A stretch of DNA of 33,756 nt, taken from the NCBI GenBank assembly GCA_003604975.1, contig QZIR01000009.1, forward strand, positions 1 to 33,756, read 5' to 3'. The notes under the pieces are model-generated. The model was not told the DNA's origin. It was given only the letters and a program-made list of their open reading frames with translations, and did no database searches. The first letter of the stretch is position 1, and every line of letters starts with the position of its first letter. Below, piece by piece: positions 5,510 through 31,232 of this stretch. Source of the stretch: Desulforudis sp. Lineage in GTDB: Bacteria; Bacillota; Desulfotomaculia; Desulfotomaculales; Desulforudaceae. Both the position numbers and the translations under genes were made by a program.

Positions 5510-5510
5510 G

Positions 5511-5690
5511 CTAAAACCCCGTTCCATGTATTTGCGTAATTCCGGATTCGGTGTGGGTGTGCAGGTCCTGAAATGCTGGGGTTAGCATCCCGACAATAGT
5601 TAGTGCCAGCAGGGCTGTACACGCCACCAGTAGTAGAAATTCAACCGTTCCGTACGAACCGCGTGTGTCGCTCCAAAACTTCTTAAGCAC
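5511..5690 (-). CDS. Small Flp-type pilin-like protein
   Basis: The GTG at 5690 follows GAAAGAGG by 8 nt and gives a 59-residue product. The longer in-frame ATG at 5711 has no ribosome binding site. Sequence features are a leader (LKKFWSDTRG), then SYGTVE and a hydrophobic helix LLLVACTALLALTIVGML, then a short polar tail rich in His/Thr. This matches Flp/Fap-type pilins of 50-70 residues. It sits just after a strong terminator that follows the 68-residue pilin gene, so it would be made at a lower, read-through level than that pilin. Whether it is a major or minor subunit cannot be told from sequence. Confidence 0.75.
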   Translation of the reverse strand: MLKKFWSDTRGSYGTVEFLLLVACTALLALTIVGMLTPAFQDLHTHTESGITQIHGTGF

Positions 5691-9762: not shown

Positions 9763-9794
9763 GCAAATACCTCCTTTAACGATTGTCTCAGAAC

Positions 9795-15189: not shown

Positions 15190-15192
15190 CTC

Positions 15193-15981: not shown

Positions 15982-17336
15982 TAAGCATCCCCTTCCCAAC
16001 AAGAAAGGATTCTTTGATGAATCTCCCGATATTCCGGTTTGATCTCTGCTCCTCTAAAGGCTAGGGCGTTCAATCTCTTTTCGCTGATGGGGTTTTCATA
16101 CACCCACTGCCTAACCTCGCCTTTGGTCTGAGCAAAGGTATCTTCATCGAAGCGAATGATGGTTTGGTAACCGTCATCGGTGACTTCTACCAGCTCCATA
16201 AAGGTGCGTTTTGCGTCCCATGCCTTATCCACAAAGACCATGAAGTGAAACATCGTGCGGATCTGGGTGTCCACGTCATCCCGGTCCAGTGGCATCCCGC
16301 CGCTCTTGAACATCTTGGGAAATCGGGATCTTACGCCCTCGGTGTCGCCGGCGTGTAGCGTGGTCCAAAACCCGCCTGACGTGGACTCGGCAATGTTTGC
16401 GGCATCCACGACCTCGCCTCCCCGGATCTCACCGACGATGGTTCGGTCGGGGTTGTGCCGGTTAAACGATGCGCACAGGTCCGACATACTAACTGTAACT
16501 TCACCGCCGTACCCAACCATAACCAGGTTGACGCAGTTAGCGAGGTGAGGAAACGAAAGCTCAAAGCTGGTTTCCGCGATCAGCACCCTGTTACTTGGTT
16601 CAATGTATAACCCCAAGGCCCGCATAACTGTTGTTTTACCGCTGTCCGTGCGCCCGCATACCGCCAAGTTCGCGGCGCCCTTCACGATCAGGTTCTTAAA
16701 CAGATCCATCGCGAAGTGTGGAAACATCTGATACTCTACCAACTTCTCCATTGGCAGAGGAGGCCGTACCAGGGGCGATTTTCTGATGGTCAGGCAAGGA
16801 CCAATAGGCGTAGCCTTGTAACCGACAACAGCAATTCGGGAGCCATCTCTTAGCCAGGCGTCCACGATGGGACCGTCCTCGGTAAATGGCCTGCCAACGT
16901 CCTCGCAGATTTTCCGAAGGTACTGAAGTAGGTCGTCTTTACTGCGAAAGAGCGTTTTATCGATCAAGTGCTGGCGGCCGTGTTTACCGATGAATACCCT
17001 TGGAGGGCCTTCGGGCACCGAGTTAATCATTATCTCTGTGATCTCTTCCGCGCCGGGGCCAACGAAGAACTCTTCCAGGGGACCATAACCGGTGGCCTGC
17101 CCAATAATCGCCCGGATAGCTTCTTCTCTTTCTTCTAAGGTAAGCTCGCTAGAAGCCTCAACAATGCCGCGAACAAGTTGTTCGGCCTTTTGTTTCTCCT
17201 CGCCAACCAAGGTCTTTGCGAAGATCTCAGGGTGTTTTCTGGCAATCTCTGAAGCAAGGCGTTCGATAGTGTGGTCTTTCTGGCTTTCCAGATATGTCGC
17301 CCAATCTTCAGATGTTACTTTAAGTTTGTTGCCCAT
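15981..17336 (-). CDS. tadA: Second TadA/CpaF-type secretion ATPase (module B)
   Basis: 451 residues from an ATG at 17336; GAAAGGAG lies 12 nt upstream, a slightly long spacing. N-terminal helical region, then the GYGPLEEFF and ITEIMINSV...VFIGKHGRQ signature of CpaF. Motifs are Walker A CGRTDSGKTT (~227-236), Walker B NPDRTIVGEIRGGE (~295-308) and the His box TTLHAGD (~328). An elongated insertion with SMSDLCASFNRHNPD precedes Walker B. It provides the motor of module B. It is much less similar to the module A TadA than paralogues from a recent duplication would be, so the second machine was probably acquired or diverged long ago. It could equally serve a conjugation-like or secretion role, which CpaF-type ATPases also do. 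Confidence 0.9.
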   Translation of the reverse strand: MGNKLKVTSEDWATYLESQKDHTIERLASEIARKHPEIFAKTLVGEEKQKAEQLVRGIVEASSELTLEEREEAIRAIIGQATGYGPLEEFFVGPGAEEITEIMINSVPEGPPRVFIGKHGRQHLIDKTLFRSKDDLLQYLRKICEDVGRPFTEDGPIVDAWLRDGSRIAVVGYKATPIGPCLTIRKSPLVRPPLPMEKLVEYQMFPHFAMDLFKNLIVKGAANLAVCGRTDSGKTTVMRALGLYIEPSNRVLIAETSFELSFPHLANCVNLVMVGYGGEVTVSMSDLCASFNRHNPDRTIVGEIRGGEVVDAANIAESTSGGFWTTLHAGDTEGVRSRFPKMFKSGGMPLDRDDVDTQIRTMFHFMVFVDKAWDAKRTFMELVEVTDDGYQTIIRFDEDTFAQTKGEVRQWVYENPISEKRLNALAFRGAEIKPEYREIHQRILSCWEGDA

Positions 17337-18470: not shown

Positions 18471-20051
18471 CTATGCTCCTAAGCCGATTGTCCCGGCGCC
18501 GTCGACCAGGAGCGGAGCGGTAACAGACTTGGTGTACGATCCAGAGCTACGCTCCCACCGCCAATTCCAGGTACGAGCCTCAGGCGGGCCCGTACGGTAC
18601 CAAACCTTATAACGGTACGAGTAGCTGATCTTGTAATCGGCTTTGATGTTGTAGTTGGTCGGCCCAGGCACCATCTGGCCTTTAAGCCGGTCATAGATAG
18701 GGGCGCCGTTAACGCTCCAATTCTGCAAAAAATCTACTTTACTCGTGTGGCCACCGGCGGTCATGTTGACCGTTAACGTACCCCACGGCTCGACCGGGGA
18801 ACCAAAGACAAAGTCCGGATGCGTCTTGGGATAAGTGAGCTTTGCCCAGTCAATCCGCCAGCTAGTAATTTCGCCGCGAGGCGCCGTTGGTGCGGCCGGC
18901 CTTAGGGTGGCTGTTACCGTGTCCGTCCACCTGGCCGTGTTCGGCACCCGCATTTTACCTGACCGACTCACCGCCTGGAAGGTCAACTCACCAGAGGCAG
19001 GTGGGATCACCGGTGCAGGCGGTGCGGTAACATTGATTTCAGCCTCGTCCGTGTTATTACTCCAGTCCCGATCTTTATCAGGAGTGATCTTGACGATCAA
19101 TACGGTGCTGGTATCTTGGGCCGTGGCCCTGTAACGATACGCTTTACTCTCACCTGGTGCAAACTCGATCTCACCACCAGGAGCCAAGGCATCTGCTGGA
19201 TCAACAGGCTCCAAAGGCATCAAGTAAGCCGTGCCACTGGGGACATTGTGCGCCAGGCTTAGCTTTGCTAATTCGGGCTTCGGGTGGTCGGCAGCCAGGG
19301 TGAAGGTTACCGTTGATTCAACTGCCTCTCCGGGCTTGCGGTCAAATTGGGCCTGAGCGAATTTAACCGAGAAGTCCGGGCCGTCAGCTGGGGCGTACGG
19401 AGCCATTGGCACGGTCTTGTAGTACAATCCACCATCACTACCGATGTTCCACATTCGGCCCATTCCCCAGGTGGTGTAAGTTGGGGGACAGTAAACGAGG
19501 ACGTATTTCTCCCATGCGACATTGTCCCCCCGCAGGATGGACTTACTGGGATCGTTGGGATTGCGCTCCTGCTGCAGGCCGGCGCGCATGGATTCCCGGA
19601 TGATGCGTTGGTTGTTGAATAGATTATTTTTTATTGTCCCGCCCTCAGACGCCACCTTATTCTTCACCCGAGGGTCATCCCACGGTTGCTCAATCCAGTT
19701 GTAATCCTCTAAGTAATTTCGCCCCCAGACCTCAATTGGAAGGTAGATGTTGGTGAACGGAGTACCATCCCTTGAGTAGCCCAAGAATCGATGGTAGCCT
19801 GAATTCGGGTGGTACTCGTAGGGCTGTCCATAGGCAAACACGCTTCTGCCCCTCCAAGTGTCTTCGTTGATGTCCTTATCTTGGACATTTTTCGTTCGGA
19901 AATAATTAGGTTCACCAAAATCCTTTTCGATATCTTGGTTTGCTGATTGGCGTGCTTCTTCGAAGGTCATAGCACCTGCCTGTGTTCCCAAGGGGAGTAA
20001 TAACAAGAGCAGTGCCATAAACGAGAGTAGTAAGCGTTTTGAAAATCTCAT
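18471..20051 (-). CDS. Large exported protein of unknown family (526 residues)
   Basis: Begins with a signal peptide (MRFSKRLLLSFMALLLLLLPLGTQAGA). Residues ~28-230 are rich in Tyr/Trp/Asn (PYEYHPNSGYHRFLGYSRDGTPF, IYLPIEVWGRNYLEDYNWIEQPWDDPR, WGMGRMWNIGSDGG). Residues ~230-350 look like a CARDB/Ig-like beta sandwich (FDRKPGEAVESTVTFTLAADHPKPELAKLSL...VLIVKITPDKDRDWSNNTDEAEINVT). A Pro-rich linker and a further strand-rich domain follow. 'W/D-SNNTDEAEI' is typical of CARDB repeats. No catalytic motif recognised. It follows the stalk-domain gene after a terminator and precedes module B. Remnants of two further copies occur at 21806-21880 and 24717-24775. Likely a surface or pilus-linked adhesin; inference from context. 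Confidence 0.8.
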   Translation of the reverse strand: MRFSKRLLLSFMALLLLLLPLGTQAGAMTFEEARQSANQDIEKDFGEPNYFRTKNVQDKDINEDTWRGRSVFAYGQPYEYHPNSGYHRFLGYSRDGTPFTNIYLPIEVWGRNYLEDYNWIEQPWDDPRVKNKVASEGGTIKNNLFNNQRIIRESMRAGLQQERNPNDPSKSILRGDNVAWEKYVLVYCPPTYTTWGMGRMWNIGSDGGLYYKTVPMAPYAPADGPDFSVKFAQAQFDRKPGEAVESTVTFTLAADHPKPELAKLSLAHNVPSGTAYLMPLEPVDPADALAPGGEIEFAPGESKAYRYRATAQDTSTVLIVKITPDKDRDWSNNTDEAEINVTAPPAPVIPPASGELTFQAVSRSGKMRVPNTARWTDTVTATLRPAAPTAPRGEITSWRIDWAKLTYPKTHPDFVFGSPVEPWGTLTVNMTAGGHTSKVDFLQNWSVNGAPIYDRLKGQMVPGPTNYNIKADYKISYSYRYKVWYRTGPPEARTWNWRWERSSGSYTKSVTAPLLVDGAGTIGLGA

Positions 20052-20072
20052 TGCATAACCCCATTCCCTTTA

Positions 20073-20105
20073 GAAAAATAATGGTCCCCTGCAGAGCAGG
20101 GGACC
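20073..20105 (-). terminator. Terminator after stalk-domain gene 1
   Basis: A perfect 10-bp stem (GGTCCCCTGC, 20083-20092, with GCAGGGGACC, 20096-20105) is followed in the minus direction by ATTATTTTTC. It lies between the stalk-domain gene and the large exported-protein gene. The homologous copy is at 21904-21938. Confidence 0.85.
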
Positions 20106-20145
20106 GCACGGTTGATCAGTTAGACTAACTGCATCACTTTTAGCT

Positions 20146-20946
20146 TCAGGTAGAGCACCTGATGAGAATGTCAATGTAGGAGTTCCCGGCGTTCGACCCG
20201 ATTTCAATAGTTCTGCCATTAGCGCTAATCCGCTTGTCTGGCAGATTATCGTAGGCATCGGTCTTTTGTTTGACGTAGTTCACGACCTCGTCAACCGTGG
20301 CGCTGTCAAACTTGCTACCCAGAATGACTCGGAGGTCGGCATACTGGGGTTCCAAGGGCTTATAGACTTTTACCGATATACCAAATTCTGCACCCGTGGA
20401 GGGCGCCGGCACACGAACCTCGATATCCGTCTTAATCGGCACGGTGTAACCATTGATGACCTTTGTGTCGCCTGTGGGCGGCGGCGTGGGCGGGCTGGGC
20501 GGCGTATCCGGGACCGTGGAGTCGATATAAACACTACCCGGCGGGACCCAATCCACCTTGGTACCTAACGCTTCAGACACGAAACGAAGTGGTACCATTG
20601 TTCGTCCGTTTAGCAGCAACGCCGGCGCATCGAGGGTCTTGGTCTTGCCGTCGACCGTCGGCTTGTTGGAGCCGATCTTCATAGTAATGACTTTGCCGTC
20701 CTTTTTTACGATCGCAGTTTGTTTGGCGCCGTCCCAGTCTACCTCAGCACCGAGAGATTCAGACACAAACCGCAGCGGAACGTAAGTACGGTTTGCCTTG
20801 GTGTCTACAAAGGGCTTCTGATCCGGGAACGCTACCAACCCGTCCTTGACGTAAACGCTGACATTGTAGTTGTACGATGCCCAGGCCGGTACCGCCAGGA
20901 CCATCATAAGCAATAGCGCCATAACGATAATAATGGTTTTCCGCAT
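20146..20946 (-). CDS. Exported stalk-domain ('copper amine oxidase N-terminal') protein, copy 1
   Basis: The ATG at 20946 is about 10 nt from AAAGGAG; an in-frame GTG at 20955 touches that site. Signal peptide (MRKTIIIVMALLLMMVLAVPAWAS), then two copies of the stalk repeat: YVPLRFVSESLGAEVDWDG...ITMKIGS and MVPLRFVSEALGTKVDW. A Pro-rich hinge (PPSPPTPPP) and a ~110-residue C-terminal domain with KPLEPQYADLRVILGSKFDSATVDEVVNYVKQKTDAY follow. Pfam calls the repeat Cu_amine_oxidN1, but no oxidase catalytic domain is present; in Firmicutes it serves as a wall- or surface-associated module. About 85-90% identical to copy 2 by eye, except in the domain after the hinge. Confidence 0.88.
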   Translation of the reverse strand: MRKTIIIVMALLLMMVLAVPAWASYNYNVSVYVKDGLVAFPDQKPFVDTKANRTYVPLRFVSESLGAEVDWDGAKQTAIVKKDGKVITMKIGSNKPTVDGKTKTLDAPALLLNGRTMVPLRFVSEALGTKVDWVPPGSVYIDSTVPDTPPSPPTPPPTGDTKVINGYTVPIKTDIEVRVPAPSTGAEFGISVKVYKPLEPQYADLRVILGSKFDSATVDEVVNYVKQKTDAYDNLPDKRISANGRTIEIGSNAGNSYIDILIRCST

Positions 20947-20976
20947 ACTATCCACACTCCTTTATTAATTGTCTAC

Positions 20977-20994
20977 CTAACGACCAAGCCGCCG
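20977..20994 (-). pseudogene. Last codons of a lost PIN-domain gene
   Basis: In the minus direction this short stretch reads codons for R-R-L-G-R-stop. The end of the intact PIN gene upstream of copy 2 reads R-R-F-G-R-stop, and the DNA on both sides down to the stalk-gene start is homologous (GCGGCGG..TTGGTCG.TAG). The rest of the PIN gene is missing and a HicA-like gene abuts instead. This shows copy 1 once had the same PIN gene upstream. Confidence 0.75.
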
Positions 20995-20998
20995 CTGA

Positions 20999-21220
20999 TT
21001 ATAAGCGCTTCCAAAACTCCTCTTCGGTGACTCTCAACTGCTTTAAAATCTTTCTCCACAGGTGACCACCGATTTCTTTCCCTACTGAGTGGCTGACCCG
21101 GGTACGTAGCACTTCCCCCGTTGATAACACTTTTTCGTAGTACCAGTGATCGGTGTTCCTGATCAGCACCCAACCAGTCTTGTCGCAGAATTTCTTAAGT
21201 TGGCCAAAGGTAGGCGGCAT
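20999..21220 (-). CDS. HicA-like mRNA interferase toxin
   Basis: 73 residues, ATG at 21220, three nt after the partner's stop, with GGGGA about 8 nt upstream. The double-stranded-RNA-binding-like HicA pattern is visible: FGQLKKFCDKTGWVLIRNTDHWYYEK, GEVLRTRVSHSVGKEI, LWRKILKQLRVTEEEFW. The His of TDHWYY occupies the position of the catalytic His in HicA, and 'VSHSVGKEI...LRKILKQ' is the standard second half. HicA toxins cleave mRNA and are neutralised by the adjacent antitoxin. Here the antitoxin gene comes first, the reverse of the classical hicAB order. Confidence 0.75.
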   Translation of the reverse strand: MPPTFGQLKKFCDKTGWVLIRNTDHWYYEKVLSTGEVLRTRVSHSVGKEIGGHLWRKILKQLRVTEEEFWKRL

Positions 21221-21223
21221 TGA

Positions 21224-21643
21224 TTAAATCCCCAATAACGATCTCACTTCACGCTCATCATCACAGAGCCACACGCGCAAGATGTACGGAAAGTGCCCTC
21301 TGCGATTAGGTGCGTTTAGAAAGACCTGAATGCGTTCTTTATAATCTACGGCATACACTGTCATTTCTTTAACCATCTCAGAGACGGCTTCCTCAAGCGT
21401 CGGAGCATTGACGACCAATTCAAGCTCTTCAAGAGCTAGTGTGATTGATCCATCTTCCTCTGACAATACTTCCGGCTCGAACGTGTAAGCCTTTAGGATA
21501 TCCTGCTGCAGGTCTCGTCGTAGCAATAGGATTTCTTCGTTTCTGCGACGTGTCACAATAGTCGGTAGAGACCGATGCCATACACCGTCAAATAGATCGG
21601 TTAGGGATCTACGCGCATTGGTAAACCGGATTTCAGCCAACAT
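21224..21643 (-). CDS. Antitoxin partner of the HicA-like toxin, Phd-like N-terminus
   Basis: The ATG at 21643 is preceded by AGGAGGAG with 6-nt spacing; the ATG at 21649 is too close to it. About 139 residues. Residues 1-50 (FTNARRSLTDLFDGVWHRSLPTIVTRRRNEEILLLRRD) resemble the Phd/YefM antitoxin fold: small strand, 'ar.sL..l...V', then 'p.ivTRr..e..lL.'. Residues ~60-139 (DGSITLALEELELVVNAPTLEEAVSEMVKEMTVYAVDY) resemble a partial HicB RNase-H-like fold. Such a composite would bind both DNA and the toxin. A TGTACA repeat operator lies just upstream, consistent with autoregulation. The module replaced the PIN/Xre-ImmA pair found at the same place in the other copy. Confidence 0.65.
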   Translation of the reverse strand: MLAEIRFTNARRSLTDLFDGVWHRSLPTIVTRRRNEEILLLRRDLQQDILKAYTFEPEVLSEEDGSITLALEELELVVNAPTLEEAVSEMVKEMTVYAVDYKERIQVFLNAPNRRGHFPYILRVWLCDDEREVRSLLGI

Positions 21644-21680
21644 TGTCATCTCCTCCTAGTACCTCCACCATATCACAATG

Positions 21681-21695
21681 TGTACACAATGTACA
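21681..21695 (-). promoter_or_regulatory. Candidate operator of the HicA-like TA module
   Basis: TGTACA-CAA-TGTACA, two self-palindromic hexamers with a 3-nt gap, lies about 40 bp upstream of the antitoxin start in an A/T-rich stretch. Repeated palindromes at this place are typical binding sites for the antitoxin's DNA-binding domain. Confidence 0.5.
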
Positions 21696-21773
21696 TACTT
21701 ATCATATGCTGAATTGGAGGATTTATGTACCCAAATTAGCTGACTATATATCCAGCGAGGATTGTCCCCTCCT

Positions 21774-21816
21774 TATCACCCCCTACATTTTGAACTCAAG
21801 TGAAATCAAGAAGTCC
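21774..21816. repeat. Junction repeat J1
   Basis: Plus strand TATCACCCCCTACATTTTGA, then ACTCAAGTGAAATCAAGAAGTCCC. It is related to a sequence at 24443-24475 (TATCGCCCCCTATATTTTGA then AATTAAAAGTCCC), in the same orientation and likewise placed upstream of a TA module. Homology of the exported-protein relic to its parent stops exactly inside this element. It looks like a mobile-element end or recombination point; I cannot name the family. Confidence 0.6.
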
Positions 21817-21880
21817 CAAGGGGGAGTATTATCAAAAGCAGCGCTATGACTGTAAGCAACAATCCCGTTGGAGACCTCAT
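21806..21880 (-). pseudogene. Signal-peptide relic of a second copy of the 526-residue exported protein
   Basis: The ATG at 21880 reads MRSPTGLLLTVIALLLIILPLGTS-stop. The intact gene at 18471-20051 starts MRFSKRLLLSFMALLLLLLPLGTQ. The upstream spacing, terminator and stalk gene are also homologous, so this is the start of a former paralogue whose remaining ~500 codons are gone. The break falls at junction repeat J1. Confidence 0.85.
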
Positions 21881-21903
21881 GGCATAACCCCCATTCCCTT
21901 TAG

Positions 21904-21938
21904 GAAAAAATAATGGTCCCCTGGCAGAGCAGGGGACC
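21904..21938 (-). terminator. Terminator after stalk-domain gene 2
   Basis: A GGTCCCCT/AGGGGACC stem (21915-21922 with 31-38) is followed in the minus direction by ATTATTTTTTCC. It is homologous to the terminator at 20073-20105, with one inserted base in the loop side. Confidence 0.8.
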
Positions 21939-21979
21939 GCACGGGTGATTCAGTTAGACTAACTGTACCAAATCTAGTT

Positions 21980-22780
21980 TCAGGTAGAGCACCAAATCAA
22001 AATCACGATGTAGGAGTTCCCAGCGTTAGACCCGATCTCAATAGTCTTCCCATTGGCACTGATCCGCTTGCCTGGCAGATTATCGTAAGCATCGGTCTTT
22101 TGTTTGACGTAGTTCACAGCTTTATCAACCGTGGCGCTGTCAAACTTGCTTTCCAGCACCACTCGCAGGTCCGCATACTGTGGTTCCAAGGGCTTAATGA
22201 CGTTTACGCATATACTAAGCTCAGGATAGGTAGGACCTGTGGGTGTTCCTTCAACCTTCAAATCCGTTTTGAGCGGTACCGTGTAACCATTAATGATTTT
22301 TGTGCCTGCGGGCGGCGGCGTAGGCGGGCTGGGCGGCGTATCCGGAACCGTCGAATCGATGTAAACGCTACCCGGTGGAACCCAATCCACTTTCGTCCCC
22401 AGGGCCTCGCTTACGAAGCGGAGAGGTACCATGGTTCTCCCGTTCATTAACACCGCCGGCGCATCGAGGGTCTTAGTCTTACCGTCAACGGTCGGGGTCT
22501 TTGACCCTATCTTCATAGTAATGACTTTGCCGTCCTTTTTTACGATCGCAGTCTGTTTCGGCCCATCCCAGTCCACCTCAGCGCCCAGGGCCTCGGACAC
22601 AAAACGCAGCGGAACGTAAGTCCGGTTTGCCTTCGTGTCGATGAAAGGTTTCTGGTCCGGGAATGCTACCAACCCGTCCTTGACGTAAACGCTGACATTG
22701 TAGTTGTACGATGCCCAGGCCGGTACAGCCAGGACCATCATAAGCAATAGCGCCATGACGATAATAATGGTTTTCCGCAT
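21980..22780 (-). CDS. Exported stalk-domain ('copper amine oxidase N-terminal') protein, copy 2
   Basis: The ATG at 22780 has AAGGAGTG upstream, exactly as in copy 1. Same signal peptide, the two stalk repeats (VPLRFVSEALGAEVDWDG and VPLRFVSEALGTKVDW), the Pro hinge and a C-terminal domain. The first ~145 residues are nearly identical to copy 1, while the stretch just after the hinge (KTDLKVEGTPTGPTYPELSICVNVIKPLEP) differs. The protein therefore has a conserved stalk and a diversifying outer segment. Both copies end ...SNAGNSYIxILIxCST with a single Cys. Downstream the transcription unit stops at a terminator and a decayed paralogue. No oxidase domain is present; function is probably structural or binding at the surface. 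Confidence 0.88.
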   Translation of the reverse strand: MRKTIIIVMALLLMMVLAVPAWASYNYNVSVYVKDGLVAFPDQKPFIDTKANRTYVPLRFVSEALGAEVDWDGPKQTAIVKKDGKVITMKIGSKTPTVDGKTKTLDAPAVLMNGRTMVPLRFVSEALGTKVDWVPPGSVYIDSTVPDTPPSPPTPPPAGTKIINGYTVPLKTDLKVEGTPTGPTYPELSICVNVIKPLEPQYADLRVVLESKFDSATVDKAVNYVKQKTDAYDNLPGKRISANGKTIEIGSNAGNSYIVILIWCST

Positions 22781-22823
22781 ACTTCCCACACTCCTTTATT
22801 AATTGTCTTTGTCAATTATCTAC

Positions 22824-23348
22824 CTAGCGACCAAACCGCCGCTTTGACAACTGGCTCCACTTTTTGATTCGTCGTTCACACTCGTTTCGTGGAAGCCGTC
22901 TGCCTTCTTCAACCATAGCCTTCAACGACCTTGCCAGGACTGGAGGTTGAGCCAATCCCAGACTATACATTTGATCCAGTACCCAGAGCGTACTCTGAAC
23001 AACCACTCCTTCATTTTCTGCGGCCTCTCGTAAAGGCCTGTCGCCGGTTAACAGTACAGCGCTTTCTGCCTTGGCCAACGCCAGGGCGAATAGGTCAACG
23101 CGACCCGGTCCCCTATACAGTTGCGCCATTCGTGAAACTTCCATAACCTGTTTCCCTGGCAGTTCACGGCTTCTCAGCCCCATCTCCACAAGTTGTCTTC
23201 CGTCCGGCTCCCGCAGTTCTCCAACGATTACGTCGGGAGCTAACAGTTCACAGGGAAGACTAAAAACGGCAATCAATATTTGCCCGCGATCCATATCAAT
23301 CCAGAAGTTAGTGTCCGTTACACATTTCGGCGGGAAGCTGATGCTCAT
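22824..23348 (-). CDS. PIN-domain ribonuclease toxin
   Basis: 174 residues, ATG at 23348, 6 nt after GGGAGG. Acidic PIN residues are in order: D12 (TDTNFWID), E44 (IVGEL), D85 (GRVDLFALALA) and D103 (LLTGDRPLREAAE), forming the metal-binding quartet of PIN nucleases. A ~50-residue basic helical tail follows (LKAMVEEGRRLPRNECERRIKKWSQLSKRRFGR). The gene overlaps the Xre-ImmA gene by 41 nt, so the two are co-translated as a TA pair. PIN toxins cut RNA (tRNA, rRNA or mRNA); the target cannot be told here. The tail's last residues survive as a relic upstream of stalk gene 1. Confidence 0.82.
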   Translation of the reverse strand: MSISFPPKCVTDTNFWIDMDRGQILIAVFSLPCELLAPDVIVGELREPDGRQLVEMGLRSRELPGKQVMEVSRMAQLYRGPGRVDLFALALAKAESAVLLTGDRPLREAAENEGVVVQSTLWVLDQMYSLGLAQPPVLARSLKAMVEEGRRLPRNECERRIKKWSQLSKRRFGR

Positions 23349-24369
23349 TCTTCACCTCCCGCCAGTACTCTGCCAACGACTTACCCAGTAATTCCGCAGA
23401 TCGGGACTCAGAGATTAGCCCGTCTGCATATGCACGCATAATCATCCGTTCCATGCGCTGAGGTACCTCGGACGGCAGCTGGTCTCCCGGTTCAGTTTTG
23501 TGCCATCCCTCGCTACGGAAAAGGTGAAGAAGGCTTCTGGCAACACCGTCAGCCACGATTCCCAACTCCGCCGCCCGGTGAATCCATGCCTGCATACTCA
23601 GTCCGTACTTGTGTTTCAATAGATGGAGTTCGTAGGAATGGATGCCCCGGCGGCACAGGCCCAATTCACGCCGGGCGGCTTCTGCCGGAACCAGAAAGGC
23701 TCCGGCAAACCGGTTTGATGCCTTCTCAGGATCAACATTTTCACAGGGATCCATAACGATGTGCCCCAACTCGTGCGCCAAACTGAAGCGCTGCCGATCA
23801 CCCGGATGTCCGGCCCTAATGGCGATTACCGGAAGACCTTCATCAGTCTCTAAGGTACAGGCGTCGAAACGCTCCACTCCCTGGATCAAGCCGATTTTGA
23901 TTCCCTTGTCTTCCAACAATTCCATCAAGTTGTCTATCGAATCAAAACCGATCTGCCAGTGTTCCCGGAGTTGGTTTGCTGCTGATTCAACATCCTCTAG
24001 CTTCTCAATCGTATAGGTCGGAAGGTCCGGGTTATTCATTTCGTTCGGCCAGAGGTCTTCAACCTCCAGATAACGCTCCAACCACTCTTGCACCTGGTTC
24101 AGCACTATACTCTGCTGCTTCTTTGGCATTTTAGGGTGCCGACTACGAAAGACCGCATTCACGAGAACAGGTCGGCGAGTCCGGAAAAAGTATTCCACTT
24201 TGACGCCAAGTACTCTCGCCAAACCCTGAAGCACCCCAGAACTTGGGGTATCCAAGTCGCGCTCGTACTTCGAGATGGCCTGGGCGCTAATACCAACTTT
24301 TTGGGCAAGGGAACGCTGGCTCTCACCCGCTGCTTTTCGTGCCTGCTTGAGTCGTTCTCCGAGCATCAT
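23308..24369 (-). CDS. Xre-type regulator fused to ImmA/IrrE metallopeptidase (antitoxin)
   Basis: 353 residues from tandem ATGs at 24369/24366 after AAGGGGTG. Residues 3-60 are a helix-turn-helix (LGERLKQARKAAGESQRSLAQKVGISAQAISKYERDLDTPS). Residues ~120-330 are a COG2856/ImmA domain with the zinc motif FSLAHELGHIVMD (HELGH at 199-203) and downstream Glu in DPEKASNRFAGAFLVP. Such Xre-peptidase proteins act as antitoxin and/or regulator and pair with varied toxins; here the partner is the overlapping PIN gene. An inverted-repeat operator lies over its promoter at 24382-24422. The intact zinc motif suggests an active protease, which could couple derepression to a signal, as ImmA does for mobile elements. 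Confidence 0.88.
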   Translation of the reverse strand: MMLGERLKQARKAAGESQRSLAQKVGISAQAISKYERDLDTPSSGVLQGLARVLGVKVEYFFRTRRPVLVNAVFRSRHPKMPKKQQSIVLNQVQEWLERYLEVEDLWPNEMNNPDLPTYTIEKLEDVESAANQLREHWQIGFDSIDNLMELLEDKGIKIGLIQGVERFDACTLETDEGLPVIAIRAGHPGDRQRFSLAHELGHIVMDPCENVDPEKASNRFAGAFLVPAEAARRELGLCRRGIHSYELHLLKHKYGLSMQAWIHRAAELGIVADGVARSLLHLFRSEGWHKTEPGDQLPSEVPQRMERMIMRAYADGLISESRSAELLGKSLAEYWREVKNEHQLPAEMCNGH

Positions 24370-24381
24370 AAATCACCCCTT

Positions 24382-24422
24382 CGGTTTACAGTTTATCAGA
24401 TAGTATCTACATTTGTAAACCG
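24382..24422 (-). promoter_or_regulatory. Promoter with inverted-repeat operator for the Xre-ImmA/PIN operon
   Basis: CGGTTTACA (24382-24390) and TGTAAACCG (24414-24422) form a perfect 9-bp inverted repeat, 23 bp apart. In the minus direction one arm contains a TTTACA -35, and about 17 nt on lies ATAAAC/TAAACT as a -10. The start codon is ~20 nt beyond. An Xre dimer bound here would occlude the promoter, so autorepression is likely. Confidence 0.7.
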
Positions 24423-24442
24423 AAAAATACACTTTAGTTCGA

Positions 24443-24475
24443 TATCGCCCCCTATATTTTGAAATTAAAAGTCCC
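24443..24475. repeat. Junction repeat J2
   Basis: Partner of J1 (21774-21816). It has the same TATCGCCCCCTATATTTTGA core and ends AAAAGTCCC, in the same orientation, between the Xre-ImmA promoter and the block of gene-end relics. J1 and J2 are 2.6 kb apart, roughly the length of one duplicated unit. Confidence 0.6.
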
Positions 24476-24489
24476 CCGGACTAACAAAC

Positions 24490-24545
24490 TTACCCAGCGA
24501 ACAACTCTCCGGCAACTGCCTGCCAGGCCTGCGCCTCATCCTAAA
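24490..24545 (-). pseudogene. Relic of the 3' end of a GGDEF-fusion gene
   Basis: In the minus direction it reads D-E-A-Q-A-W-Q-A-V-A-G-E-L-F-A-G-stop. The gene at 27004-29568 ends D-E-V-Q-A-W-Q-A-V-A-R-E-L-F-A-G-stop, with near-identical DNA over about 45 bp. A TAG codon sits immediately before the matching stretch. It proves a second copy of that gene's end once lay here. Confidence 0.85.
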
Positions 24546-24550
24546 CCCCC

Positions 24551-24647
24551 TCAGTGGGACGGGTAGGTATAGGTGACACCTGTACAACCGGGGCCAATAG
24601 CTGGGCACTGCTTGCCCTTTGCCTACAATCGGGACCTGAACAAGCAT
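24551..24647 (-). pseudogene. Internally deleted, frameshifted relic of the DUF4320-like gene
   Basis: The ATG at 24647, preceded by GGGAGGTG, reads MLVQVPIVGKGQAVPSYWP. It then needs a one-base shift to continue VTYTYPSH-stop. This equals the start codon region plus the last ~30 residues of the gene at 17991-18404 (LVRVPIVGKGQAVSSYWPGLYSVTYTHPSY). Roughly 105 codons between are deleted. The preceding TAAATAG and terminator stem are homologous too. Confidence 0.85.
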
Positions 24648-24670
24648 GCTGCACCTCCCGGTCTAAATAG

Positions 24671-24704
24671 AGAAGCCCCCTCTGATCGAGCTCAGAGAGG
24701 GCTT
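24671..24704 (-). terminator. Relic terminator of the duplicated locus
   Basis: GAAGCCC..CTCTG and CAGAG.GGGCTTC pair around GATCGAGCT. It lies between the two gene-end relics exactly as the terminator at 18428-18462 lies between the parent genes. Confidence 0.7.
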
Positions 24705-24716
24705 CGCCAGAAGAAG

Positions 24717-24775
24717 TCAGGCCCCTACACCAATGGTCCCGGCACCATTTACCAGCAAGTTATGAGTCAGTAGGG
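24717..24775 (-). pseudogene. 3'-end relic of a third copy of the 526-residue exported protein
   Basis: The minus strand reads ...NLLVNGAGTIGVGA-stop. The intact gene ends APLLVDGAGTIGLGA-stop. Upstream sequence (to 24818) is no longer recognisable and abuts the HEPN gene. Together with the terminator and DUF4320-like relic downstream, it preserves the parental gene order. Confidence 0.8.
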
Positions 24776-24817
24776 TGAAAAAAGTCAGCAAATAAGTCAG
24801 GCTCAGGAAACCTACGA

Positions 24818-25228
24818 CTAGTCGGAGCCAAGCTTGTCGCGGACGAAAACCACCGCCCGCTCGGCCAGGCTGTAGGCAAGTTCGGCATCCCGCAGGCTAA
24901 AAGCGTCAGCCGGGATGCCGCCGGGTAAACCGTTGGGATAGCGCGTGGGAATGTAGTACTTGTCCAGCGGGCCGACATTCTTGCCCAACGCCCTGAACGC
25001 AGGGTCAAAAGCAGTAGCGTCCCGGCAAAGCTCAGCAACCGAGTGCCCCCAGACGTGGCTTGCGCCCTGCGCGTAAATGTATGCCTTCAGGGCTTTCTCG
25101 GCGCACTGCTGAGCGAGGAAGCAGGCCAGATTGTACCTTTTCCCCCGCAGAGCAAAAAGGGTATCGTCTAAATCCCTTTCGGCCTGGGCGAACCATCTTT
25201 GCCCCTCACGGAGGCTATCACGCTTCAT
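24818..25228 (-). CDS. HEPN-domain protein (MNT partner)
   Basis: The ATG at 25228 overlaps the nucleotidyltransferase stop by 11 nt; longer starts upstream lie inside that gene. About 137 residues, all-helical, with WFAQAERDLDDTLFALRGKRYNLACFLAQQCAEKALKAYIY and HVWGHSVAELC, the classic HEPN (PF05168) helices. Later DAFSLRDAELAYSLAERAVVFVRDKL. HEPN/MNT pairs are widespread in thermophiles and Firmicutes. In characterised MNT-HEPN modules the HEPN protein is an RNase toxin silenced by the nucleotidyltransferase through AMPylation. The strict Rx4-6H RNase motif is not evident here, so its activity is uncertain. Confidence 0.85.
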   Translation of the reverse strand: MKRDSLREGQRWFAQAERDLDDTLFALRGKRYNLACFLAQQCAEKALKAYIYAQGASHVWGHSVAELCRDATAFDPAFRALGKNVGPLDKYYIPTRYPNGLPGGIPADAFSLRDAELAYSLAERAVVFVRDKLGSD

Positions 25229-25556
25229 ACAACACCTTACCTTCCCGCAGAGTCTGCCGGACAAAGCTGTTTGTTTCCGCAAGCGATGCGATCTCATCAG
25301 GTGTATAGACAAGGATATCTAGGGCCGGGCGCTCGTCAAACAGGTCGTAAAACTCGTCTAGCCTAGCCATAAAGGGCTTGTGAGTCTCCTGCACAACCAA
25401 AAGGTCGATGTCGCTGGACGGGCCTACATCGCCGCGGGCCAGCGATCCGAAGAGAATAATCCTCCGCACGCCCCTGATCTTAAGACGTTCCACTAAGCCG
25501 GCCAGGTCGGCCTGCAGGCGCTCTTTGCGGCCTTCATCGCCTATACGGAACCCCAC
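25218..25556 (-). CDS. MNT-type minimal nucleotidyltransferase (antitoxin)
   Basis: 112 residues from a GTG at 25556 with GGAGGTG upstream. The polymerase-beta-like core is plain: ILFGSLARGDVGPSSDIDLLVV, i.e. GSx9-10DxD, with a third acidic residue in PALDILVY. These minimal nucleotidyltransferases modify or bind the HEPN partner encoded by the overlapping gene. All catalytic residues visible in this family are present. Confidence 0.88.
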   Translation of the reverse strand: MGFRIGDEGRKERLQADLAGLVERLKIRGVRRIILFGSLARGDVGPSSDIDLLVVQETHKPFMARLDEFYDLFDERPALDILVYTPDEIASLAETNSFVRQTLREGKVLYEA

Positions 25557-25752
25557 GGCGGCACCTCCTGCAGGTAAATAATCCCTTCTTAATCATAACC
25601 GATCCAGTCTCAGTAATAAAGCCTCTGAATGCTTTCCACGCTCCATCAGTATCGGTGCTTTACCTTAAGGAAAGGTTAAGGCTCTGGGCGTGAGGATATT
25701 TCACGCGAAATATCGTCTCCCTCATTACTGCCTCCTTGTAACCCCTAGTTTT
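25557..25752. other. Intergenic segment between MNT and mazF
   Basis: No gene is visible. The first bases carry the MNT ribosome binding site. Further on are a CCTTAAGG-containing inverted repeat (about 25662-25680) and the 20-bp palindrome listed separately at 25695-25714. This gap separates two minus-strand TA modules, so it must hold mazF's end signals and the MNT promoter. Confidence 0.5.
25695..25714. promoter_or_regulatory. parS-like perfect palindrome
   Basis: GATATTTCACGCGAAATATC is a perfect inverted repeat. Its central 16 bp (TATTTCACGCGAAATA) match 13 of 16 positions of the bacterial parS consensus TGTTTCACGTGAAACA. A parA-parB pair lies about 4 kb away, making it the best centromere candidate in the window. 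It could instead be an operator for a neighbouring TA module. Confidence 0.45.
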
Positions 25753-26094
25753 CTAAAGACCAAGGCTTATTCGAATTGCCTGGTCCACATCTCGCATTTT
25801 CTTTCCCGCCAAAGATCCGACTTTCTTGATCAAGCGTGTTTGATCTATGGTTAAGATCTGTGCCGCATTAACCACGCTGTCTTTAGCTAAGCCACCTTCG
25901 CCTGCTTCCAGCAGTACCAGAAAGGGATACGATTTGTGGATGGCCGTTGTGATAGCTGCCACAGTCGTGGTCGGACTGGTTCGATTCCCTACGTCGTTCT
26001 GAATAACGAGGGCCGGCCTCAAGCCAGCCTGCTCGCTACCCCTTGCAGGGTTGAAATTAACCAGAAACACGTCCCCACGCCTAACTTCTGTCAC
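25753..26094 (-). CDS. mazF: MazF/PemK-family mRNA interferase toxin
   Basis: 113 residues, GTG at 26094, with GAGGTGATT upstream. Family landmarks: VRRGDVFLVNFNPARGSEQAGLRPALVIQND at the N-terminus, then NRTSPTTTVAAITT, KDSVVNAAQILTIDQTRL and a C-terminal helix. The R of 'GSEQxGxRPALVIQN' and the T of 'SPTTTVAAIT' are the expected active-site residues. It would cleave RNA at short motifs. The start overlaps the antitoxin gene by 14 nt, a standard TA arrangement. Confidence 0.93.
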   Translation of the reverse strand: MTEVRRGDVFLVNFNPARGSEQAGLRPALVIQNDVGNRTSPTTTVAAITTAIHKSYPFLVLLEAGEGGLAKDSVVNAAQILTIDQTRLIKKVGSLAGKKMRDVDQAIRISLGL

Positions 26095-27003: not shown

Positions 27004-29568
27004 TCATCCAGCGAACAACTCTCTGGCAACTGCCTGCCAGGCCTGCACCTCATCGTCCGAAAAGCCTTCCCCGATCATTCTCTCCCGGACCTGTACCCGC
27101 CGGTCAAAGCATTGCTTTGGAGACTTAGCGCCTCCAGTTTCCCAGTAAAGTTCAACCACCTTTGCGGCATCCAAGACGCCTGCACGGGACAATTCCGAAA
27201 CCTGTCGCTTGGCCAGGTCAATCTCTTGCGGTGTGGCAAACGGAACAACCACCATATCTGCGCTCCGCAGAGCGACGACAGTTGCCGAGGTGTCATGCTG
27301 GGCACATGGGCTTACGACCACCAATTCGGCCTCTCGGACCAGTTCGTCCAACACGGCTTCCAGGATGTGTTGGGGCAATTCGGGAACCCCGATGTGTCCA
27401 AGCTTGTAGCCTACGGCGAGATACCTGATCCCCATCGGCCTGCTGCGTTTTACCATTGGCAGTACCATGTCAACCGTCAGCTCGTCGCCCATCGTCACCA
27501 AGCCGACGTCAGCCGGGGTGCATTCCCCGTCGTGTGATACGCCAAACCAGTAATCCAATTCAGGACTTGCAAAATTCAGGTTGGCCAGGATGGTATCTCG
27601 GGAAGCGCCCAGGGCCAGGCCCAGGCCAGCCCTGGTCATATGTTGACCGGTAGGGTTCCATACGGCTACAAGCGAAACACTGGATGTGAGCCCGTCGCTT
27701 GTTGAGATATGCGGCATCTTGGCTTTTCCCAACTTCGGTAGGGCAAACCAGGAAGATCGTCCTGATCTGCGCCGTTCATCCGGCGGCGGGATCTCCGTTG
27801 CCTTTGACCCACTCGGCTCTTCGGGCTCTTCCGGTTCTTCCGTAAGGGAAAACATCGGCAACCTGGTTCCAACGATCGTTGCCCGTTCGGTGGCATCGTG
27901 TTTTGTCGGCACATGGTCTTCGCCGCCGGTCGGTTCAATCCGGTCATCAGCCGATTCAACCGATTCAACCTCAGGTAATCGATCATCAGTAGACCCCTTT
28001 TCCTCACTGCCGCTGCGGGCAATGGAATCATCCAACCCAAGCCAGTAGATCAGGGCATCCTGATCAAACTTCGTACTAACATGGGTGGTCGCGCAGTTGG
28101 CCAGCACCTCCCGGACCTCCTGAGATGGTTTAGATGCGAAAACCACCACCATCTCAGATCCCGGATACAAGTCCGCAAAAGCTTGTACGCTCTCTGCCCA
28201 TCCCAGTGAATTGTAGCCACAGAACAAGAATTTGTCCGGCCGTTCCTCGATGACCAGCTCATCAAGCGAAGCAGATCGAGCGACAATTGAAACCGCTTCT
28301 TGGAGAGCCATCGCGATGTCATCCGTCTGCCGGCCGAAGCAAATGCACAGACTTGGGCGTTCGCTCACAGTCTTACATACGACACGGTTCTTGCCGGATT
28401 TCTTAGCGCTGTATAACGCCTTGTCCGCATTGTCCAGGCTATCGGCCACACCTACGGAGAAGGTCACTTTGACTTGGGTATGCTCCTTCCGGTTCCACTT
28501 ATCAAGTATCTTCTCGAATATCTGTGACGCAACGGATGGGTGAGTATGCGGAAAACAGATTACGAACTCTTCCCCGCCCCATCGTGCTACGATGTCCGAA
28601 GCCCGCACCGCCTGCCGAAGGAATGAGCCGACTTCGGAAAGGACTTTGTCTCCCGCGATGTGGCCATGAGTGTCATTAATCGCTTTGAAGTCGTCAAGGT
28701 CGAGAACGGCAACGGCCGGAGCCGTGCTCTGTTCATCCATCCACTCGGCCAGAAAAGACCTGGTGTAGCACCCCGTCAAAGCGTCAGTATTTGCTTTGGC
28801 CCACAGTACCTTGGCCTTCTCGGCCCTAGATCTAATGCGGCTCAGGGCCATTTCATCCAATATTTCAACGTAGTCGTCGGCAAGCGTAACCAGTTCTGTG
28901 TCCGGCTGCAGCTGCACGTTGTCTCCGACCACGGCGATGGACATTGTCTTGTACCTGATATCACGCCTAATGCGTTTAATGTCCGAGACGTTTACCAATT
29001 CAGCGCTCACTGCCATCGCATCAGGCACGTTGTCGCCGAGGGCTTCCAGAGCGGCATCCAGATCCGGAAACGTCGCGATAGAATCCTTGAATATCAAAAC
29101 TACATTCGCTGTATTACTTTCAAGAGCATCCGGGAGCGTGTCCGTTACCACGATTGTTTCCAGCAACCGTAAAAGGCCCACCAGTTCTTCGCCAGTTTGA
29201 TCATGATCAATAACTCCGTACGCAACGGGTTTTGTTCCAACCAGCCGTCGTATATGTACATAGAGATCCAGGGTGGGCCTACCGAGTACATATACTGGGA
29301 GCAACAGGTGTCCGGCCCGGGCGACGGCATCTTCCCAATTGCCGTTTTGGGCAACCAAAACGGCAATCAGACCGCGGTCCCGATCAATAGCGTTGAGGTC
29401 GTCTGAGACCACAGTCTCATAGCCTGACGCCATTGCGTATTCTTGGATCTTCCGGCAGTCAGTCCGGTCTGCCTGCTCCTGCCGGCCTGGGTAAAAAATC
29501 AGTACTCTGTTCAGTTTTCCCACCACCTCTCCATTACCGGAGCGCATCAAGTAGTTGCTGTAATTCAT
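27004..29568 (-). CDS. Diguanylate cyclase (GGDEF) fused to a degenerate ParA-like domain
   Basis: 854 residues in five parts. Residues 20-140: alpha/beta domain (RVLIFYPG, GLIAVLVAQ, LLLPVYVLG) of unknown family. 150-250: second region ending in a helical linker (ADDYVEILDEMALSRIRSRAEKAKVLW). 258-400: complete GGDEF domain with TDALTGCYTRSF, AVLDLDDFKAINDTHGH, the active-site GGEEF (331-335) and an upstream RxxD inhibitory site (RASD, 322-325). 505-615: acidic/Pro-rich linker. 625-800: MinD/ParA-like fold (SLVAVWNPTGQHMTRAGLGLALG, ELVVVSPCAQHDTSATVVALRSADMVVVPF), with the P-loop Lys lost. It should make c-di-GMP with product inhibition. The ATG at 29568 overlaps parB by 35 nt; in-frame GTG codons at 29526/29523 near GGAGAGG are alternatives. 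Confidence 0.85.
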   Translation of the reverse strand: MNYSNYLMRSGNGEVVGKLNRVLIFYPGRQEQADRTDCRKIQEYAMASGYETVVSDDLNAIDRDRGLIAVLVAQNGNWEDAVARAGHLLLPVYVLGRPTLDLYVHIRRLVGTKPVAYGVIDHDQTGEELVGLLRLLETIVVTDTLPDALESNTANVVLIFKDSIATFPDLDAALEALGDNVPDAMAVSAELVNVSDIKRIRRDIRYKTMSIAVVGDNVQLQPDTELVTLADDYVEILDEMALSRIRSRAEKAKVLWAKANTDALTGCYTRSFLAEWMDEQSTAPAVAVLDLDDFKAINDTHGHIAGDKVLSEVGSFLRQAVRASDIVARWGGEEFVICFPHTHPSVASQIFEKILDKWNRKEHTQVKVTFSVGVADSLDNADKALYSAKKSGKNRVVCKTVSERPSLCICFGRQTDDIAMALQEAVSIVARSASLDELVIEERPDKFLFCGYNSLGWAESVQAFADLYPGSEMVVVFASKPSQEVREVLANCATTHVSTKFDQDALIYWLGLDDSIARSGSEEKGSTDDRLPEVESVESADDRIEPTGGEDHVPTKHDATERATIVGTRLPMFSLTEEPEEPEEPSGSKATEIPPPDERRRSGRSSWFALPKLGKAKMPHISTSDGLTSSVSLVAVWNPTGQHMTRAGLGLALGASRDTILANLNFASPELDYWFGVSHDGECTPADVGLVTMGDELTVDMVLPMVKRSRPMGIRYLAVGYKLGHIGVPELPQHILEAVLDELVREAELVVVSPCAQHDTSATVVALRSADMVVVPFATPQEIDLAKRQVSELSRAGVLDAAKVVELYWETGGAKSPKQCFDRRVQVRERMIGEGFSDDEVQAWQAVARELFAG

Positions 29569-30436
29569 CCATCAGTGTCCTTAGTTCGCGCTGATAGCGT
29601 GTGCGCACTTCGGGCGAGGCCTTGACCGCCTTTCGGCGTAAACGCTTTAGCTGGCTGCGCTGCTTGTCTAGTGTTTGAGTTACCGTATCCGGCCGTAACC
29701 GTTGGAGCAGAGCATTCGCGCGCTCGGTAGCCTGTTGTCCCGAAAGTGATCTGCCTTTTATCTCTCCGAACAGCAGCTGCTGGGCTTCAGGGAATTTTTT
29801 GAGCATCATTAAGGCCCGAGAATGTATCTCGTTCATCTCCAGCCGGGCACTACAAAACTCAGCCAAAAGGTCATCCGGTAGATTGAAGATGTTAAGCATT
29901 TGGCTCACTCGTGATTTGCTCATTCCCATCTTCTTGCCCAACTCATCATAGGTCATCGGCTGACCGAGCGCCTCGGCACGCTCTAAGATTGTCCGGAAGG
30001 CCATGGCCGTCTCAATGGCCGACAGATCCTCCCGTAGGATGTTCTCCAAAAGAGAGTCAATGATCACATCTTGCTCCGATAAACCCTCTGTGACAATGGC
30101 GGGAATAGTCTCCCAGTTAAGAGAAGTGATGGCTCTGAACCTTCTCTCTCCCCAGATCAGCTCATACTTGCCGTCCGGAAGCGGACGTACTCCAACCGGC
30201 TGCTTCAAGCCGCGTTCGGCAATCGATGCCGCCAATTCCATAATGGATGCTTCAGAGAAGTACTTGCGAGGCTGATCTTTCCTTGGGATTACACTAGACA
30301 GTGGGATCTCACGCAACCCCAGCTGTCTGCCAACACCCGGACGAGACAGAAAAAGCGAGACCACCCCTGCTGTCCTGCGCGGTCTCGCACTCCCTTCTCC
30401 GTGTAATTGTGTCTGGTCAGCAGATTTTTCAACCAC
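29534..30436 (-). CDS. parB: ParB-family centromere-binding partition protein
   Basis: The GTG at 30436 follows GGCGGTGAT by about 7 nt and overlaps the parA stop by 8 nt; a longer form from 30466 is possible. About 300 residues. N-terminal ParB/Srx domain with IPLSSVIPRKDQPRKYF, ASIAERGLKQPVGVRPL and the CTP-binding GERRFRA box. Then LLENILREDLSAIETAMAF and the helix-turn-helix TYDELGKKMGMSKSRVSQMLNIFNLP. A basic coiled C-terminus (LKRLRRKAVKASPEVRTRYQRELRTLMDELQQLLDAL) would dimerise. With ParA it segregates the replicon carrying this window. The parS-like palindrome at 25695 is its candidate target. Confidence 0.93.
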   Translation of the reverse strand: MVEKSADQTQLHGEGSARPRRTAGVVSLFLSRPGVGRQLGLREIPLSSVIPRKDQPRKYFSEASIMELAASIAERGLKQPVGVRPLPDGKYELIWGERRFRAITSLNWETIPAIVTEGLSEQDVIIDSLLENILREDLSAIETAMAFRTILERAEALGQPMTYDELGKKMGMSKSRVSQMLNIFNLPDDLLAEFCSARLEMNEIHSRALMMLKKFPEAQQLLFGEIKGRSLSGQQATERANALLQRLRPDTVTQTLDKQRSQLKRLRRKAVKASPEVRTRYQRELRTLMDELQQLLDALR

Positions 30437-31232
30437 GGACTTGATCACCGCCGTCCACGCCTTCAATCTCCCTGGCTAAATCCGCATAGTCGTGGCTACC
30501 GACACAGCTTCGGTCATGGTGATGGACAGGAATACCGAGCCGTGCTGCTTCGATAAGTCGGGTGTTCGTCCGGATCTCCGTATCAAACACCTGGCTTCCA
30601 AAGCGCTCGCGCATGCCATCCTTCATGGTCCGGTCCTCGTTTCGCCTCTTGTCAATCATTGTCATCAGAATGCGCCAACCGACCAGATGGGGGTTTACGC
30701 GTTCCTGAACCGTACCAATGATGTTAATAAGTTGTTCCAATCCGGATATCGCAAAGGCGGCCGGTGGTGTCGGAATAATCACATCGGTAGCCGTGGAGAG
30801 TGCATTCACCATAAGTATCCCCAGTGTGGGTGGAGTATCTATGATGATGTACTTGTACTCATGACCGGAGTTTCTGCGCACGATACCTGATAAGGCATGC
30901 TGAAGCCGCCGTTCCCGGCCTATCTCCCCGATCAATTCCGTTTCAGCGCCGGCAAGCTCGATCCCTGAGCGAACGACATCCATGTTCTCGTTAGGTCCGG
31001 TTTGGATGACATCATCAGCACGTACACGGTTCATGACCAAGTCGTATGAAGAAACACTATCGTCGGACGTATGAAACCCCAAGCCGCTTGTAAGGTTTGC
31101 CTGTGGGTCCAGATCCACGACCAAGACCCGCCGACCCAACTCTGATAACGAAGTAGCCAGGTTGATCACAGTTGTTGTCTTGCCGGTCCCGCCCTTTTGA
31201 TTTGACACTGCTATAATCCTGGTACCGATCAC
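30429..31232 (-). CDS. parA: ParA-family partition ATPase
   Basis: 267 residues from a GTG at 31232, with GGAAGGAG 10 nt upstream. IIAVSNQKGGTGKTTTVINLA is a canonical deviant Walker A with its signature Lys. VLVVDLDPQANLTSGLG and YIIIDTPPTLGILMVNAL are the A' and B motifs. The protein lacks an N-terminal DNA-binding extension, so it is of the Soj/type Ib form. The gene overlaps parB. The chromosomal soj-spo0J neighbours (gidB, rnpA and others) are absent, which fits a plasmid or integrated element rather than the origin region. Confidence 0.95.
   Translation of the reverse strand: MIGTRIIAVSNQKGGTGKTTTVINLATSLSELGRRVLVVDLDPQANLTSGLGFHTSDDSVSSYDLVMNRVRADDVIQTGPNENMDVVRSGIELAGAETELIGEIGRERRLQHALSGIVRRNSGHEYKYIIIDTPPTLGILMVNALSTATDVIIPTPPAAFAISGLEQLINIIGTVQERVNPHLVGWRILMTMIDKRRNEDRTMKDGMRERFGSQVFDTEIRTNTRLIEAARLGIPVHHHDRSCVGSHDYADLAREIEGVDGGDQVRG

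Follow-up and report, generated by a model that had tools for sequence, protein, structure and literature searches.

The 854-amino-acid protein encoded on the minus strand at positions 27004-29568 of a Desulforudis sp. contig belongs among the TadZ/CpaE-type proteins rather than representing a new kind of system. It is probably a diguanylate cyclase mounted on a TadZ/CpaE-type pseudo-ATPase, which would let c-di-GMP be made at the ring around the Tad motor in a Tad/T4SS apparatus of mobile-element type; we infer its activity, docking, location, and effect from domain composition and gene neighbourhoods. The stretch of DNA that was analysed (33,756 nucleotides, hereafter the window) is the entire contig C33 of a 3.14-Mb draft genome. 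Its termini do not overlap, which gives no sign of a circular contig.

The open reading frame was confirmed, and its longest frame opens at the ATG at 29568, which is preceded by AAGGA. With this start, the gene overlaps parB by 35 nt, as given in the initial annotation. The overlap is nevertheless doubtful because two in-frame GTG codons, at 29526 and 29523, follow both the parB stop codon (TAA, 29536-29534) and a Shine-Dalgarno sequence (GGAG, 29532-29529). Translation from either GTG would place the N-terminus just ahead of the first strand, as in several homologues, and would abolish the overlap; thus, either the ATG or one of the GTG codons may be the true start. Whichever is used, the gene lies directly behind parA-parB on the same strand, downstream of parA as originally described.

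Several domains can be delineated along the protein (all coordinates on the minus strand). Residues ~16-140 (29149-29523) form a probable receiver-like region (pseudo-receiver 1), recognised from the sequence pattern by inspection only; a single-sequence structure model of residues 15-399 had a pLDDT of 38.5 and was too poor for use. A second, family-specific pseudo-receiver (residues 166-257; 28798-29073) precedes the GGDEF domain and is detected by a local HMM; a profile built from residues ~160-257 and relatives (A6) matches the FrzS pseudo-receiver (E 1.5e-5) and PhoB. The GGDEF diguanylate cyclase domain itself (residues 258-397; 28378-28797) is delimited by a Pfam match and by alignment. 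Between it and the long acidic linker reported earlier (residues 516-629; 27682-28023; low complexity, model pLDDT ~30) we found a third receiver-like domain that adds to the previous domain reading (residues 403-515; 28024-28362). It matches the N-terminal domain of stand-alone TadZ/CpaE-like relatives, and a profile built from that domain and residues 403-515 (A5) matches CheY/YycF (E 4e-5). In the window protein this domain is diverged (10% identity to the first alignment row) and weakly conserved; in the structure model, strands and helices alternate over residues 401-497 with a pLDDT of ~70. A degenerate ParA/MinD (SIMIBI) domain (residues 631-852; 27013-27678) completes the protein. On inspection, the usual phospho-acceptor Asp is absent from all receiver segments. 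Given these receiver-profile matches, the protein reads as a putative cyclase unit (two pseudo-receivers and GGDEF) joined to a complete TadZ/CpaE-type protein (pseudo-receiver, linker, and ParA/MinD domain), with a receiver-like domain ahead of the ATPase-type domain as in TadZ/CpaE.

The sequence-family match of the C-terminal domain is weak (NCBIfam ParA_partition, E 0.0037), and a profile of its homologues matches Soj, ParF, and MinD chains, the best ParA-type rows having E ~1e-4. An AlphaFold2 model of residues 400-854, built with relatives L078-L083 and one CpaE-like protein of the window, reached a pLDDT of ~85 across most of the domain. In a fold search, this model aligned with Soj at Z 21.0 (205 residues, 2.4 Å); the Soj/MinD matches lay at Z 21 with an rmsd of 2.4-2.6 Å over 205-212 residues, and Eubacterium rectale TadZ (3fkq) was matched at Z 17.2 (212 residues, 3.4 Å). 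The domain therefore has a SIMIBI/ParA fold, and the MinD/ParA-like fold proposed in the initial annotation was correct.

The surroundings of the gene point to pili. The window contains two Tad-like sets, both on the minus strand: set 1 (14374-17336) comprises a TadA ATPase (15981-17336), TadB (15193-16002), and TadC (14374-15189), and set 2 (6141-10328) comprises a TadBC pair (6141-7780), TadA (7749-9080), CpaB (9055-9843), and a prepilin peptidase (9795-10328). The two sets differ, stand in tandem, and have a TadA each. On the same strand are two stand-alone CpaE/ParA-like proteins whose sequences keep the P-loop Lys (10404-11396 and 11393-12805, the second of which carries a receiver-like domain at its N-terminus), as well as a block of Tad-linked surface genes identified by Pfam/NCBIfam and local HMM matches (18471-22789). 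This block, which encodes a protein with an Athe_2463 domain (18471-20051) and a pair of Cu_amine_oxidN1 proteins (20146-20955 and 21980-22789), is conserved beside homologues of the C-terminal domain. The Tad genes are separated from the fusion by defence/toxin-type genes (23308-26094), namely an XRE-ImmA/IrrE protein (Pfam) together with a nucleotidyltransferase/HEPN pair and a MazF-like protein that were recognised by inspection.

An association with Tad genes holds beyond the window. The C-terminal domain has stand-alone homologues in 10 other genomes of the order, to which Desulforadius tongensis and Peptococcaceae MAGs belong, and in all 10 the homologue lies upstream of an operon of the window type (Cu_amine_oxidN1, Athe_2463-domain, TadA, TadB, and TadC); TadA itself falls inside nine of the 10 fetched regions. 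A gene for an SLT/M23 peptidoglycan hydrolase and one for a VirB4/HerA-like ATPase are often found upstream of the stand-alone homologue, and in two genomes (L049 and L053) a long ParB-like protein is encoded there instead. At one locus (L047:11427-12971), a group II intron-type reverse transcriptase, recognised by inspection, is encoded directly upstream of the degenerate ParA gene. Another protein joins such a domain to a transfer-machine part: the 636-aa product of L052:8757-10667 (= L079:8831-10738) has an N-terminus that, by inspection, resembles a T4SS membrane subunit of the PrgI type, followed by a degenerate ParA domain.

The fusion also recurs. A profile of the pseudo-receiver and the start of the GGDEF domain has matches in 16 of 113 genomes of the class and in eight genomes outside the class within a 398-genome sample of the phylum; in local HMM scans, most of the matched proteins also contain a ParA-like domain. 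Altogether, HMMs detect a GGDEF domain together with a ParA-like domain in 22 proteins, including that of the window. All but one of these adjoin TadA, VirB4, SLT/M23, or Athe_2463 genes (21/22), and the exception lies on a 4.3-kb contig and is the same protein as that encoded by another counted locus (L112 and L058). For comparison, a modest control set of 20 other GGDEF loci was drawn from the same hit list as the first search, covering these genomes and related ones: 17 are without the Tad/VirB4 gene set (one has PilB/PilT-type genes), and the remaining three are further fusions in the same type of locus (L131, L132, and L134, counted among the 22). GGDEF-ParA fusions thus recur in Tad/VirB4 hybrid loci of Bacillota. 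The junction of a GGDEF domain with a P-loop-less SIMIBI domain and the option of a role in Tad pilus placement are both supported, and neither result that the initial annotation named as refuting it was obtained, since the fold is of the ParA/MinD type and homologues are found together with tad genes. The initial annotation knew of no described system with such a fusion. Searches of the open-access literature agree, as no description of this fusion was found for GGDEF with CpaE/TadZ, for GGDEF with ParA-like or MinD-like domains, or for Tad and VirB4 with GGDEF, but the architecture is not unique to the window.

In the hybrid loci (L047, L048, L051, L054, L060, L061, L117, L120, L123, L125, L131, and L134), genes for a VirB4/HerA-like ATPase, an SLT/M23 peptidoglycan hydrolase, and ParA-like proteins are followed by TadA-TadB-TadC; VirB4 was not recognised in every locus. 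Such loci look like a transfer or adhesion machine that mixes T4SS and Tad parts. Therein lies an alternative in which the fusion would serve a mobile element's Tad/VirB4 transfer machine and local c-di-GMP would license DNA transfer (mating-pair formation) rather than adhesion. The VirB4/HerA-like ATPase and SLT/M23 hydrolase genes that precede the fusion in many relatives would fit this proposal, as would a locus (L167) where 20 kb hold a T4SS coupling protein, parAB of the window family, and Tad genes, and the plasmids of Cutibacterium acnes, described as combining a tad locus with VirB4 (PMC5696575). However, the window shows no recognisable VirB4, coupling protein, or relaxase, and the best coupling-protein match of the source genome is on another contig (C20). 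A transfer-licensing role is unlikely on this evidence but deserves consideration, because the contig ends near both sides. Among plasmid records, none covers 80% of the fusion protein and the matches are ordinary GGDEF genes; no relative of the C-terminal domain was found among viral contigs.

The initial annotation also proposed that c-di-GMP synthesis could be tied to replicon partition. The genes concerned, both on the minus strand, encode ParB (29534-30466; PF02195, 8.6e-25) and a ParA with an intact KGGTGKTT motif (30429-31232; PF13614, 7.7e-54), and they form a second set in the source genome, distinct from a Soj/Spo0J-like set on contig C18. The KGGxGK[ST]T signature of partition ATPases is intact in this separate ParA and is not found in the fusion. 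Spo0J-type parS sequences occur in the window at chance level, and the window ParB may use another site. The closest relatives of this ParB (36-44% identity, E 1e-49 or better) are found in eight genomes, at least six of which also have Tad/VirB4 or fusion loci; thus, parAB is best read as a putative maintenance module of the element type that carries Tad/VirB4 loci, not as a dedicated partner of the fusion. Serine recombinases are close to window-family parAB in several other genomes. At L167:4030-19900, within 16 kb, the T4SS coupling protein and window-family parAB are accompanied by homologues of window genes 1396-3621, 4474-5115, and 5060-5527 and of the prepilin peptidase.

If the dead ParA domain docked on the upstream ParA or ParB, c-di-GMP would be coupled to segregation or copy-number control. 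The tight, co-directional order parA-parB-fusion in the window speaks for such an arrangement, and so does the long ParB-like gene that precedes the stand-alone homologue in the two genomes mentioned above. Nevertheless, a ParA-ParB pair beside the fusion was seen in the window alone: no other examined GGDEF-ParA fusion adjoins one, relatives having VirB4/SLT-M23 genes or the long ParB-like gene, and where close relatives of the window ParB occur in other genomes, a different contig or a distance of 40-50 kb separates them from the fusion or its stand-alone relative. Moreover, the C-terminal domain groups with Tad-linked domains, and the window ParA falls outside this group. Coupling to partition is thus weakened to an improbable reading, and the genomic evidence favours a Tad/VirB4 machine over partition.

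The GGDEF domain, described earlier as complete, bears out that description. It matches PF00990 over the full length of the model (6.4e-29; residues 259-395 against positions 1-161 of 161), GGEEF occupies residues 331-335 (28564-28578), the RxxD inhibitory site is R322-D325 (28594-28605), and the DLDDFKAINDTHGHxxGD block retains its Mg/GTP residues. Judged by these motifs, the domain should make c-di-GMP. It might instead bind GTP or c-di-GMP without cyclising and pass an allosteric signal to the pilus motor, given that its loops are ~20 aa shorter than those of relatives in the alignment and that the partner domains of the fusion are pseudo-enzymes; yet this protein retains GGEEF, RxxD, and the metal-site block unchanged, and the whole family conserves them, which makes such a sensor or scaffold role quite improbable. 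Counting against the pilus reading, among the scanned window proteins Pfam recognised none of the c-di-GMP receptor domains PilZ and MshEN, and no Rfam c-di-GMP riboswitch family scored above threshold in the window.

In contrast to the GGDEF domain, the nucleotide site of the C-terminal domain is degraded. The P-loop reads NPTGQHMT (27634-27657), and the absence of its Lys noted in the initial annotation is due to a change of K to M (codon 27637-27639). The Walker A' Asp is replaced by Asn at N665 (27574-27576), where the window protein reads NLNF and all other rows keep Asp; the Walker B region is VVVSPC, with Ser at a position where relatives have D or N. The usual reading in stand-alone homologues is [VI]WNP[TS]Gxx-K, in which the P-loop Lys is kept and the MinD-type signature Lys is gone family-wide, and the window protein, reading WNPTGQHM-T, has lost the P-loop Lys too. 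ATP binding in the usual mode is thus unlikely. As the site departs from the deviant but nucleotide-binding Walker A of TadZ/CpaE (with Met for Lys and Asn for the Walker A' Asp), the domain is called TadZ-like and not a TadZ ATPase. The P-loop Lys is kept in five of 22 fused ParA domains and in 32 of 41 stand-alone ones, a difference (Fisher 3e-5) that is indicative only because the relatedness of the sequences is ignored. This recurrent loss of the ATP site points to a putative adaptor role as a pseudo-ATPase. In a further group of stand-alone ParA-like proteins (L058:7162-8193, L061:6146-7372, L114:4283-5293, L131:7035-8060, and L134:11842-12888), the P-loop Lys is replaced (GCD, GTT, GRT, GLT); these look like a second pseudo-ATPase lineage of Tad/VirB4-type loci. 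In Desulforadius tongensis (L050:9421-10794/L078), an in-frame stop at the P-loop splits a stand-alone degenerate ParA gene. Such broken relatives, together with the three nucleotide-site positions at which the window protein differs from stand-alone relatives, might suggest that the gene has begun to decay into a pseudogene, but this is very improbable, as the 854-aa frame is intact, the GGDEF motifs and the structural motifs PELDYWFG and GIRYLAVGYKLGHIGVP are kept, and loss of the Lys is the rule across fused members.

The two halves of the protein appear to have different histories, as their trees disagree. In the tree of GGDEF segments, the fusion proteins cluster apart from other GGDEF domains, with one outlier (L132), in a clade that also holds several proteins without a detected ParA domain; the window protein is sister to a paralogue from its own genome, encoded on contig C48 (support 0.985). 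The tree of ParA domains instead groups that of the window with stand-alone WNP-type domains (0.99) and then with L060/L113 (0.86), and the ParA domain of the C48 paralogue is placed elsewhere. Domain exchange or a separate fusion may explain this discord, as judged from single trees with modest supports.

For the preferred reading, a cyclase carried on a TadZ/CpaE-type adaptor, the following mechanism can be proposed. The dead ParA domain and the receivers would bind the TadA motor of the same cluster, its intact CpaE-like proteins, or both, so that the cyclase would be held against the Tad machine on its cytoplasmic side. GGDEF enzymes function as dimers. Ring assembly could pair the GGDEF domains, concentrating and orienting the cyclase, and because these domains must dimerise, c-di-GMP would be made locally upon assembly of the pilus machine. 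Local c-di-GMP may then tune pilus extension and retraction or a surface or mating response, and the pulse would be kept short or small by product feedback at RxxD. With its ATP site dead, the fusion would serve as a permanent adaptor, and cycling would be left to the CpaE-like proteins of the locus that are intact. It is tentatively possible that this describes a general, hitherto undescribed class in Bacillota with Tad/VirB4 hybrid machines, in which the CpaE ring has a c-di-GMP synthase built into its structure, a pseudo-ATPase adaptor pairs with active CpaE, and assembly switches on synthesis.

How pilus machines obtain and sense c-di-GMP, and whether this signalling is local or global, is an open question in the field. 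The recurrence of the fusions suggests that in cells carrying them the signal is produced at the pilus motor itself, and a synthase covalently joined to a ring component of the Tad type offers a direct way to test local signalling. Moreover, the setting of Tad, VirB4, and peptidoglycan hydrolase genes, with a coupling protein and parAB nearby in one genome, suggests a little-described transfer or adhesion machine of anaerobic Bacillota.

Among known systems, the fusion resembles TadZ/CpaE in fold (E. rectale TadZ, PDB 3fkq; Caulobacter CpaE). In Caulobacter, CpaE dimers have been modelled as a ring around the CpaF motor in which REC domains make the contacts, and TadZ reportedly dimerises by binding ATP (PMC13170226); in contrast, the fusion adds a diguanylate cyclase unit and is without the P-loop Lys and the Walker A' Asp. 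Like cyclases of the PleD/WspR type, it has receiver-like domains before an intact GGDEF domain with an I-site, but its receivers are without the phospho-acceptor Asp, and the C-terminal ParA-like domain and the pilus-locus setting set it apart. The MinD-like proteins BcsQ and FleN, both among the fold matches, are partners in c-di-GMP-dependent secretion or gene control; however, these are separate proteins without GGDEF and belong to different systems. The tad and VirB4 plasmids of Cutibacterium acnes share the combination of a tad locus with a conjugation-type VirB4 on a mobile replicon, whereas the available part of that report mentions no GGDEF-ParA fusion (PMC5696575). In Caulobacter, c-di-GMP likewise acts on Tad pili, its level controlling pilus number and retraction, but the cyclases there, such as DgcB, are separate and linked to the flagellar motor (PMC6581867), whereas in the window protein cyclase and Tad-type component form one polypeptide.
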